Of a stretch of 64,000 nucleotides of DNA, positions 56,903 to 59,658 are shown piece by piece (positions within the stretch are counted from its first letter, which is position 1; every line of letters starts with the position of its first letter). The stretch lies in assembly GCF_000020325.1 (NCBI RefSeq), contig NC_010730.1, positions 1,199,501-1,263,500 on the forward strand, written 5' to 3'. The notes below the pieces were generated by a model that saw only the letters and a program-made list of their open reading frames with translations, did no database searches and was not told the DNA's origin. Both the position numbers and the translations under genes were made by a program. This DNA is from Sulfurihydrogenibium sp. YO3AOP1. GTDB taxonomy: Bacteria > Aquificota > Aquificia > Aquificales > Hydrogenothermaceae.

Positions 56903-56916
56903 CATTTAACATAGAA

Positions 56917-57080
56917 CATCCTGAGGACGCAAGTCCGAAGGATCTCCTCTTTCAAAAAGTGAGAAAGTGAATAGAGGCAATTCATGAATTGCCTATACAG
57001 TGAATAAATTAGAGGGTAAGAAGACGGAGATTCTTTGCCTGCTGCAGAATGACGATGTTGATTTTTGCAAGCATTCTCAT
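56917..57080. repeat. Right part of the IS110-interrupted repeat
   Basis: CATCCTGAGGACGCAAGTCC from 56917, a palindrome GGCAATTCATGAATTGCC near 56975, GAGATTCTTTGCCTGCTG from 57029 and a closing TTTTTGCAAGCATTCTC. Joined to 55612-55654 it gives a complete copy of the family. Confidence 0.8.
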
Positions 57081-57203
57081 GATTTACACTTTAAAAACAG
57101 TTCAATTTATTTTACATCTCGCATTAACCATTTCGCATAGGTTCTATAAGACTATTAAAAGATGTCATGTTAAAACTGCTGATAAATCTGTTTTTCTTTT
57201 CTC

Positions 57204-57231
57204 TTGATTTTCGGTTTTTTTTCGGTATAAT
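57204..57231 (+). promoter_or_regulatory. Putative promoter, possibly the ancestral lexA promoter
   Basis: TTGATT at 57204-57209 and TATAAT at 57226-57231, spacer 16. Two direct TTTTCGGT repeats lie in the spacer (from 57208 and from 57218), a possible operator. It serves the tnpB gene now; before insertion of that element it may have served lexA. The rest of the 258-base gap before tnpB shows no gene. Confidence 0.4.
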
Positions 57232-57338
57232 TATATACTAAAGGAGTTTAATAACAGTTGCCATTTTCTGTAAAAAAGTGTGCATGATGATACGGAAACA
57301 AGAAAATGTAGAATTGTAAGTAGAAAAGAGGCAAAAAT

Positions 57339-59012
57339 ATGATAACCTTGCAATGCCAACTTGAGTTTGAAAATAGGCAAGATAAAGAGATTATATTAGA
57401 TTTAATGCGTAGATTCTCATCAGCAAGTAGATACGCATATCAAAGATTATTAGAAGGCAAAAAAAGAAAAGATTTAAAAAAGCAGTTATCAAGATTGTTT
57501 AATATAAATACAAGATATTCAGATGATGCTATATTCTTAGCACAGTCAATAATTTTGTTATACAAAGAAAGACAGCAAAATCCAAAAAAAGTTATCTTTG
57601 GTTCAAGGAAATTATTTGAGCAACTAAAGAAAAATCATTTAACAGGAAAAAGAAGAAAAGAGTTAAAAGCAAAATGGAAAGAAAGCAGACAAGGGAATTT
57701 GTATTCAAGAGGAGATAAATCTAAGCAAGGAAATCTAAATTTAAGATTTCATCGGATTAATAATGAGCTTTACTTGAGAATAAACACAGGAGATAGACAA
57801 TATATCTACGCAAGAGTAATTAGAAGCGTTAAAAGGGAAAAAAATAAATGGATAGATTTTGTGTTTATGTTAGAAAATGCATATCAGACAGATGAATGGT
57901 TTGCGTATAGTGTTAGATTAAAAACAAAAAACAGCAAAATATACGCTTTTATATCCATAGAAGAAAAACTACCACCTATTACAATCAAAAGAGACAATGG
58001 TATTATAGGCATAGATGTAAACGCATATCCATTTCATCTTGCACTATCTTTTACAAGTAAAGATGGAAATTTAGAGAAATATCAAAGCATTAATTTAAAT
58101 GAATTATTAGAAGCAAACTCAGAAAAAAGACAGTACTTAGAATGGCTAATAGCACATAAGATAATAAAGATAGCAAAAAAAGAGAATAAAGCTATCGCTA
58201 TCGAAAATTTAAATAAACTACCAAAAGGTAAAAGAGGAGATGGATTTGCAAAGCTAAGAAGTAAATTACAGAAATGGAGCTATAAAAGATTATTAGACAA
58301 AATAGAAATATTAGCAAAAAGAAACGGGATAGAAATAAGAAAAGTCAATCCTGCATATACATCAGTAATTGGAAAGCTAAAATACTCGCCACAATACAAC
58401 ATAGACAAAGACATAGCAGGAGCTTACGTAATAGCAAGAAGAGGATTAGGATATAAAGAAAAATTACCAAAAAATTATAAAGAACTGTTAAATGATATTG
58501 ATTTTCTGTCATACACCATCGCAAGAATTGAAGATAGTATTACAAAATTAAAACAAAAGATAAAAGAAGAGAAAAATGAATATAAGAGAAGCAAAATTAA
58601 AAGCAAATTAGCAAAACTAAGAAAAAACCTAAAAACACTACAAAACCACGTCTCACGTTTCACGTCTCCCGTTTCACGTTCAGAAAGTGGAAAGAGCAAG
58701 ACAGCTACCCAACATCCTGTCAACCAACGGAAGGAACAGGTGAGGGGTCTGCCTACAGGTAGACATAAAAGCTGGCAAGTTCTTTCCATAGCCTTAGCCT
58801 TCTGCTGTTTTGAAAGATCGTATAGAGATCTTTCTCCTTTGAATCGTGTAATCGTTTCAAAGGATTGGACAGTAGTGGCTAATAGGTTAGCTCCTGTACT
58901 TGGTGCAGGGACTATGACACTTCCCAAATACCGCCTGTTGGGGTCGGAAGTGTCTGAAATGGCGGAATACAAATACCCCAACCCAAGCTGTAGTTTTATA
59001 CAGTTTGGTTGA
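57339..59012 (+). CDS. tnpB: TnpB RNA-guided nuclease (IS605-type OrfB), variant without zinc finger
   Basis: A 557-residue TnpB-family protein. A wedge/REC-like N-terminal half is followed by a split RuvC domain with the three catalytic acids: Asp226 in IIGIDVNAYPFH, Glu289 in AIAIENLNKLPKG and Asp358 in NIDKDIAGAYVIARRG. The usual four-Cys zinc finger between the second and third motifs is absent. Past residue about 365 the frame continues through a Lys-rich coiled coil and then, after about residue 435, a stretch that looks like structured RNA rather than protein, so the tail may not be functional. No tnpA is adjacent, so the element is non-autonomous or domesticated. RNA-guided DNA cleavage is known for the family. 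Confidence 0.83.
   Translation: MITLQCQLEFENRQDKEIILDLMRRFSSASRYAYQRLLEGKKRKDLKKQLSRLFNINTRYSDDAIFLAQSIILLYKERQQNPKKVIFGSRKLFEQLKKNHLTGKRRKELKAKWKESRQGNLYSRGDKSKQGNLNLRFHRINNELYLRINTGDRQYIYARVIRSVKREKNKWIDFVFMLENAYQTDEWFAYSVRLKTKNSKIYAFISIEEKLPPITIKRDNGIIGIDVNAYPFHLALSFTSKDGNLEKYQSINLNELLEANSEKRQYLEWLIAHKIIKIAKKENKAIAIENLNKLPKGKRGDGFAKLRSKLQKWSYKRLLDKIEILAKRNGIEIRKVNPAYTSVIGKLKYSPQYNIDKDIAGAYVIARRGLGYKEKLPKNYKELLNDIDFLSYTIARIEDSITKLKQKIKEEKNEYKRSKIKSKLAKLRKNLKTLQNHVSRFTSPVSRSESGKSKTATQHPVNQRKEQVRGLPTGRHKSWQVLSIALAFCCFERSYRDLSPLNRVIVSKDWTVVANRLAPVLGAGTMTLPKYRLLGSEVSEMAEYKYPNPSCSFIQFG
58640..59004 (+). ncRNA. Candidate TnpB guide RNA (reRNA/omega RNA)
   Basis: This stretch within the 3' part of tnpB is visibly richer in G and C than its surroundings and holds several hairpins: TCTGCC/GGTAGA near 58749, AAAGATC/GATCTTT near 58814-58834, CTTTGAA/TTTCAAAG near 58837-58862, ACACTTCC/GGAAGTGT near 58917-58953, and GGGGT/ACCCC near 58939-58980. 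TnpB guide RNAs overlap the 3' end of tnpB in this way, and their guide is the flank past the element's right end, here lexA leader sequence. The exact right end is not located. Confidence 0.6.
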
Positions 59013-59025
59013 CCAGGTGATAAAG

Positions 59026-59658
59026 ATGACAAAGAGACAGAAAGAAATCTTAGACTTTATCATTGAGTATTATCAGAAAAATGGATATTATCCTACTTTG
59101 ATGGAAATTGCAAAACATTTTAATCTTTCTGCTGTATCCACAATTCATGAACATCTCCAAAAGTTAGAGCAAGAGGGATATATAAAAAGATCCGGTAAGG
59201 GAAAAATTGAGATAGTTGAGAAGTCTCCAAAAAATGAAAATTCGTTTATTTTTCCATACTATGGAACAATCTCAGCAGGTAAGCCTATAGCTATAGAAAA
59301 CCAAACTTTTGAGTATATAGATTTGTCTGACATTTTAAGATGTGAAAACTGCTACGCTTTAAGAGTAAAAGGTAATTCCATGATAGGTGAGTTTATTTTA
59401 AATGATGATATCATCATCGTTGAAAACAGAAAAGAAGCACTAAACGGTGAAATAGTTGTGGCGGTTATTGATGGAGAGGAGACGACCTTGAAAAAATTTT
59501 ATAACTTAGGAAATGGCTATATTAAGCTTGTTCCTGCAAATCCAGACTATGAGCCTATGATTTATGAAGCTGATAGAGTAGAAATACAAGGTGTTTTGAA
59601 GGGCATTGTAAGAAGCTTTAAAGGTTTAAAAAAGGGGGCGTTGTATGATGAAGAGTAA
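59026..59658 (+). CDS. lexA: LexA repressor
   Basis: SOS repressor of 210 residues. The winged-helix domain (TKRQKEILDFIIEYYQKNGYYPTLMEIAKHF, STIHEHLQKLEQEGYI) is followed by the self-cleaving peptidase S24 domain with the Ala-Gly cleavage site in TISAGKPIAI, Ser118 in KGNSMIGEF and the Lys in TTLKKFY. ATG 59026 with AGGTGA upstream is chosen over TTG 59005. The TnpB element ends directly before it, so its promoter may have been displaced. It overlaps the next gene by 14 bases and heads a four-gene operon with a DNA polymerase. Confidence 0.93.
   Translation: MTKRQKEILDFIIEYYQKNGYYPTLMEIAKHFNLSAVSTIHEHLQKLEQEGYIKRSGKGKIEIVEKSPKNENSFIFPYYGTISAGKPIAIENQTFEYIDLSDILRCENCYALRVKGNSMIGEFILNDDIIIVENRKEALNGEIVVAVIDGEETTLKKFYNLGNGYIKLVPANPDYEPMIYEADRVEIQGVLKGIVRSFKGLKKGALYDEE

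Follow-up and report, generated by a model that had tools for sequence, protein, structure and literature searches.

Why does a gene for a TnpB protein lie immediately in front of lexA, and does the RNA that it seems to contain serve lexA regulation? These questions are raised by a 64-kb stretch of the genome of Sulfurihydrogenibium sp. YO3AOP1 (64,000 nt, positions 1,199,501 to 1,263,500 of contig NC_010730.1; whole genome 1,838,442 bp), referred to below as the window. An earlier reading of the letters alone (the sequence-only reading) had proposed that the TnpB guide is directed at lexA, or that TnpB was domesticated as a regulator of the SOS response. Comparison with related copies and empty sites points to a tnpA-less IS607-type TnpB element, whose target and predicted transposon-adjacent motif (TAM) are both the core AGGAG(G) of the Shine-Dalgarno (SD) sequence. 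We put the probability of this reading at roughly 80%. Coordinates are window positions; the element, lexA and the signals described around them lie on the + strand.

The element at lexA and its insertion rule

The tnpB open reading frame (ORF; 57339–59012) encodes 557 aa, and its product matched the TnpB families TIGR01765 (E=7.5e-20), TIGR01766 (E=8e-15) and guided_TnpB (E=4e-12). Four full copies of the element were found in this genome, the other three being 85–93% identical to the window copy, and all of them share their ends. In the four-way alignment the left junction falls at about 57247, where AAAGGAG is followed by TTTAATAACAGTTGC. The left end (TTTAATAACAGTTGCCATTTTCTGTAAAAAAGTGT..., 57247–57338) runs straight to tnpB without tnpA and is one G short in the window copy compared with the other three; ..AACAGTTG.. 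is common to relatives 3′ of GGAGG. The right end (CAGTTTGGTTGACCAGG, 59001–59017) stops at 59017 with the junction of GTTTGGTTGACCAGG to TGATAAAGATG, giving an element of about 1.77 kb. The tnpB stop codon TGA (59010–59012) lies 5 nt ahead of this end, and the ATG of lexA (59026–59658; Peptidase_S24 and LexA_DNA_bind in Pfam) lies 8 nt past it. The interval 57339–59025 of the sequence-only reading was correct in its contents, while the element is somewhat larger, beginning at about 57247. On the upstream side, AAAGGAG (57240–57246) is the SD of lexA, separated from its gene by the insertion, and is the target and predicted TAM. A promoter-like TTGATT-16-TATAAT (57204–57231), recognized only by its consensus match, adjoins the insertion; it also precedes the empty lexA site described below and is probably the native lexA promoter. 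No terminator-like site was found between this promoter and lexA.

Empty sites were sought by searching 16 downstream flanks (four from the own genome, eleven from genome G002 and one from genome G005) in seven genomes of the genus. For all 16 insertions, an empty orthologue was recovered with a GGAGG-type SD directly ahead of the same start region. The genes downstream of the four YO3AOP1 copies are lexA, which was confirmed by Pfam, and hslU, ftsH and trpS, which were named from reading their proteins; all four sites have empty orthologues. The lexA insertion is absent in G002 and G006. The empty site in G002 (L151) reads AAAGGAGG immediately ahead of the lexA start region TGATGAAGATG (in a longer reading, CAAAGGAGG followed by TGATGAAGATGACAAAG), placing the right end immediately 5′ of TGATAAAG-ATG of lexA and confirming that the element abuts the lexA leader. 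The 16S rRNA of YO3AOP1 ends in GGATCACCTCCTTT (read from the complement AAAGGAGGTGATCC), so that the empty lexA site, with AAAGGAGGTGAT, forms a 12-nt pairing with this tail. Over the 16 sites, the mean predicted SD pairing of the host gene was −11.0 kcal/mol before insertion and −3.5 kcal/mol after it.

In complete copies both flanks match one and the same empty site, with two exceptions. For L053 the empty orthologues are shorter by 3 nt, and the left flank of L052 (G002:C10) belongs to another insertion site (L058/L145), reflecting either a misjoined assembly or recombination among copies. A GG core was found at both ends and in the target, without target duplication: the empty site reads GGAGG-start, and the occupied site reads GGAGG-element...CCAGG-start. 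Only this GG core is shared at the junctions, as an IS607 recombinase would give. An insertion ahead of atpC is present in two species (L060, G002:C9; L170, G005:C61), indicating that some insertions are old enough for inheritance.

About 100 related copies from Aquificota, Deinococcota, Bacillota and Caldisericota, together with the 16 empty-site positions, show one insertion rule, as established by sequence comparison: the element lies directly after GGAGG, the SD, just ahead of a start codon and in the orientation of the gene. The copies in the following counts are partly non-independent. Of the 42 Aquificota right ends, 35 have no more than 12 nt downstream a start codon whose frame runs for 50 or more codons, against a random-position background of 5–7% (p=2e-34). 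Two of the seven exceptions are a gene truncated by the end of its stretch and infC with an apparent ATT start; at this locus (L061, G002:C30) the element is inserted ahead of infC, which apparently starts at ATT as in E. coli. In 80 named loci from four phyla, including Thermus, Meiothermus, Caldanaerobacter, Caldicoprobacter, Ammonifex and Caldisericum, 60 right ends were assessed and 46 obeyed the rule. Among the misses, L236 and L239 at least are right ends misplaced by the search pattern. Judged from their protein starts, the host genes include rplU, infC, atpC, adk, guaB, metE, argG, pstB and pdxA. The left-flank motif is GGAGG with A before it, and little information was found farther out.

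The class of the element was assigned from its relatives. In those at 50–55% identity (L070, L073), tnpB is preceded by the gene of a serine recombinase that has a MerR-type helix-turn-helix (HTH; PF00239 with PF00376/PF13411), and both of their ends match the window family. Because relatives with the same ends carry this IS607 serine recombinase, the window element appears to be a tnpA-less (non-autonomous) IS607-type copy. The MerR-HTH recombinase, here present in the relatives, the GG core and the lack of target duplication are shared with IS607 of Helicobacter pylori and ISC1904 (PMC6188088; PMC4058570). The classical IS607 target is a preferred (G)GG with a GG core and no further pattern (PMC6188088; PMC4058570), whereas the window family enters AGGAGG ahead of start codons and the window copy carries no tnpA. 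A tnpA acting in trans was considered and rejected, as the serine recombinase (C1:1778453) and the Y1 transposase (C1:1433445) of this genome adjoin other, different TnpBs. A TnpA remnant, consisting of the HTH and the C-terminal end, was seen upstream of tnpB in L065 (G057), with its frame closing as ATGA over the tnpB start. The ORF from the left-end TTG ends in this way in L064, L065 and L072. A relay from the captured SD at the left end was rejected: TTG is common 10–11 nt past GGAGG, but most copies are without the ATGA overlap. A multi-copy group of related TnpBs in other Aquificales (L088–L105, in G043, G047, G049, G051, G053 and G057; about 43% identity) was used as a contrast set; it has the terminal inverted repeats GAGGCTGTTCTAAAAAT.../...TTTAGAACAGCCTC and does not follow the SD rule. 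A decayed TnpB fragment of a related element (39% identity, 6 stops) was also found at C1:893172–893588 (L013).

The left flanks and the empty sites suggest AGGAG(G) as the TAM of this family. Measurements on IS607 TnpBs of the RAGATH-18 group gave 5′-AGGAG as the TAM in 18 of 22 strains, and each single TAM change abolished cleavage by the ISFba1 TnpB (PMC11061315). The TAM of the ISFba1 group thus equals the insertion motif of the window family, and the two are further alike in being IS607-type, with a D-E-D RuvC TnpB and a pseudoknotted right-end element RNA (reRNA) beside the right end. On the other hand, the ISFba1 TnpB has 387 aa and its reRNA begins 13 nt past the gene, whereas the RNA of the window element lies within the tnpB frame. 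The window TnpB also differs from this group by having no zinc finger, by a coiled-coil after RuvC-III and by an RNA without an Rfam match. The ISDra2 TnpB of the IS200/IS605 type likewise draws its reRNA from the 3′ end of the element and its guide from the flank, but has a Y1 transposase, a T-rich TAM and another insertion mechanism (PMC8612924). A link between the AGGAG TAM and the SD was not found in a full-text literature search, most subscription papers being outside its reach, and the main text of PMC11061315 makes no mention of 'Shine', 'RBS' or 'start codon'.

A conserved structured RNA inside the tnpB frame

The GC-rich structured region that the sequence-only reading had described within the TnpB frame was borne out. 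The 3′ part of tnpB has 46% GC compared with 28% upstream, and the predicted scaffold of the guide RNA (omega RNA or reRNA) spans 58730–59017 as judged from covariation and a drop in the synonymous rate (dS), its 5′ boundary being approximate. In a consensus fold from 20 aligned 3′ regions, compensatory changes were observed in 30 of 70 pairs. Two pseudoknot helices were added to this fold by eye. With both included, 97.1% of the cells were paired and both-side changes were found in 35 of 68 pairs, against a shuffle mean of 22 (0 of 500 shuffles reached 35); the covariation score was 0.435, compared with 0.196 in shuffled controls and no more than 0.114 in slid ones. Among the helices of the fold are 58916–58924 with 58946–58954, a CCGCC/GGCGG pseudoknot (58929–58937 with 58959–58967), TGTTGGGGT/ACCCCAACC (58936–58944 with 58975–58983) and a terminal hairpin (58984–59008). 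The CCGCC/GGCGG pseudoknot is invariant and hence uninformative for covariation, while the other pseudoknot helix covaries at 6 of its 8 pairs. Moreover, dS is about 3–5-fold lower over this stretch, and the nonsynonymous rate (dN) stays nearly constant (in group A, dS 0.516 to 0.170 and dN 0.063 to 0.070), which is the signature of an RNA beneath a reading frame. The alignments thus show a conserved structured RNA inside the tnpB frame that ends at the right end of the element. Searched against Rfam 15, the window element and its surroundings gave no hit at E<=1, and five relatives gave none at the gathering threshold; for the RAGATH-18 motif there was no Rfam match here, the presence of RAGATH-18 among the Rfam models not being confirmed. 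In the trpS copy (L012, 3864 region) and in the G002 copies L053, L054, L056 and L062, the right-end hairpin loop contains an extra piece, and tnpB ends 43–49 nt short of the right end. The extra piece of L012 resembles left-end sequence in inverted orientation (CTGTAAAAAAGTGTAAAAATCAG).

The reading frame over this RNA is itself conserved, as the alignments demonstrate. When 300 nt were examined in 28 Aquificota copies, the tnpB frame contained 0 or 1 stop and the other forward frames contained 2–12 each. In many copies, among them those of Thermus at 41% identity, the stop codon falls exactly 5 nt before the right end (TGACCAGG or TAACCAGG). Non-triplet indels compensate one another (+1, −1 between L070 and L074; +1, +1, −1, −1 between L070 and L078), so that some copies read part of the peptide in another frame while the frame remains open. 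That openness is preserved despite a frame-shifted peptide points to selection for the open frame rather than for the peptide.

The RuvC D-E-D triad is intact. D226 (codon at 58014), E289 (58203) and D358 (58410) are invariant across 12 diverse relatives (alignment A1), and the only cysteines are C6, C489, C490 and C551, in agreement with the zinc-finger-less TnpB with all three RuvC acids that had been noted before. Alignment and residue check revealed no Cys pairs between RuvC-II and RuvC-III, where a zinc ribbon was looked for; this absence is a family-wide deviation rather than damage to the window copy. In an AlphaFold2 model built on the family alignment, residues 1–441 are mostly confident. 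Cas12f gave the best solved-structure matches, at low TM-score, and was also returned by the sequence profile search. It is the nearest solved structure in both fold and sequence, but Cas12f is a CRISPR effector and the likeness is confined to the RuvC half.

Guide match, proposed mechanism and alternatives

Because the RNA ends at the right end, the sequence that follows, here the lexA leader, occupies the guide position. Judged by position, the predicted guide covers 59018–59037 (lexA leader and first codons), its length being set at 20 nt by analogy with other TnpBs, and the RNA would carry lexA leader sequence as the sequence-only reading had expected. That reading had named an empty site with the right end far from the RNA as a refutation of its proposal, and on this point the comparison came out in its favour. 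In the own genome, AGGAG plus the predicted guide matched with up to two mismatches only the occupied site itself, which has ACCAG at the TAM position; the next-best matches have three mismatches. This agrees with the usual behaviour of TnpBs, whose guide matches the empty allele while the occupied one escapes cutting; the lexA-derived sequence would be the ordinary homing guide of the element. Domestication of TnpB as an RNA-guided regulator of lexA and the SOS response is known in kind from TldR-type TnpBs (PMC13418256) and would agree with a guide matching the lexA start region. It is nevertheless very improbable: the RuvC triad is intact, three sister copies stand at the unrelated genes hslU, ftsH and trpS, the lexA insertion is absent from two genomes of the genus, and no second site in the own genome combines AGGAG with this guide within two mismatches. 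TldR proteins and other domesticated TnpBs are marked by an inactivated RuvC, immobility and a conserved place, whereas here four polymorphic sites are occupied. Nothing points to SOS regulation, and a dedicated lexA regulator is not supported.

From these comparisons we infer a scheme that includes nuclease action, the TAM, RNA processing and a translational relay. As the comparisons show, the element enters exactly after GGAGG, with a GG core and without target duplication, and parts the SD from the downstream start codon. TnpB with the lexA-flank guide would cut the empty allele, which presents AGGAG and the lexA start, and repair would copy the element back, resulting in retention or homing; the occupied allele would escape cutting as its right end reads ACCAG. 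For the host gene left without its SD, we suggest with less certainty that ribosomes finishing tnpB re-initiate at the host start codon, the tnpB stop being placed right at the terminus of the element, some 8–17 nt ahead of that codon. The weakened SD pairing, the lack of a terminator and the open frame led us to propose this relay, which would account for a frame that stays open across the RNA. IStrons, some of which are IS607-type, also soften the effect on the host gene (PMC4227781), but they splice out of the mRNA, whereas the window family remains in the 5′ untranslated region between SD and start codon; the window element had no match to intron families. That the SD as landing pad (target and TAM) and the frame left open for re-initiation form one strategy is a tentative view, to which we give somewhat less than an even chance. 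If true, RNA guide, TAM and host translation would together allow essential genes to be occupied harmlessly. The AGGAG TAM of IS607 TnpBs would gain a biological meaning, the SD being a short motif of constant orientation ahead of genes. This would account for elements ahead of such housekeeping genes as lexA, trpS, ftsH, rplU and infC, and guides are predicted to come from start-codon regions. The family also clearly exemplifies how a structured, predicted guide RNA can lie within a protein-coding frame, with the relay as a testable idea for the openness of that frame.

Several observations weigh against this scheme. An AGGAG TAM has been measured only for other IS607 TnpBs, TAM, guide and nuclease being predicted for the window group, and the window copy without tnpA may no longer be mobile. 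The ribosome relay is not universal, given that in most Bacillota copies the stop precedes the right end by 70–180 nt and that internal stops occur in three Aquificota copies (L020, L080, L087). Moreover, with background statistics taken from the 64-kb window alone, GGAGG is an SD in 22 of its 39 occurrences (56%). The SD rule may then be a mere by-product of a recombinase that recognizes the G-rich, purine-rich AGGAGG, with intragenic insertions purged and translation irrelevant. Such a by-product is a real possibility, if a doubtful one, and the GG core and (G)GG preference of IS607 (PMC6188088) as well as the early-closing frames of most Bacillota copies speak for it. Insertions at an SD are in excess of the motif occurrences (35/42 versus 22/39, Fisher p=0.014), although purging could produce this excess too, and we do not claim recognition beyond the motif. 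The open frame, the end-placed stop and the compensating indels in Aquificota and Thermus would, however, need another reason. In another alternative, the frame would be open for a functional C-terminal protein domain encoded over the RNA; parts of the peptide (KLWQVVKVALTIPVLGKS, RDLSPLK) align among relatives. We regard this as unlikely: the peptide is read in different frames between copies with openness kept, dN/dS climbs to 0.4–0.8, the tail (residues 442–557) is predicted to be disordered (pLDDT, the per-residue model confidence, about 24–46), and the underlying RNA accounts for the sequence conservation.

Two further features of the locus were observed. A CACGTYTCACG-type short repeat lies in frame at 58647–58680, in the stretch of tnpB that joins the protein core to the RNA region; it differs among copies and is absent from copy c103. 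Repeats of this type are found both inside TnpB frames and at other places in the genome (C1:28105, 448950 and 1779757, and also the TnpB of L108), and they seem to have been inserted in frame. Directly upstream of the element lies an IS110-family transposase gene (NF033542, 55898–56902), and the unannotated stretch that follows it (about 56903–57200) could contain its end and a bridge/seek RNA.
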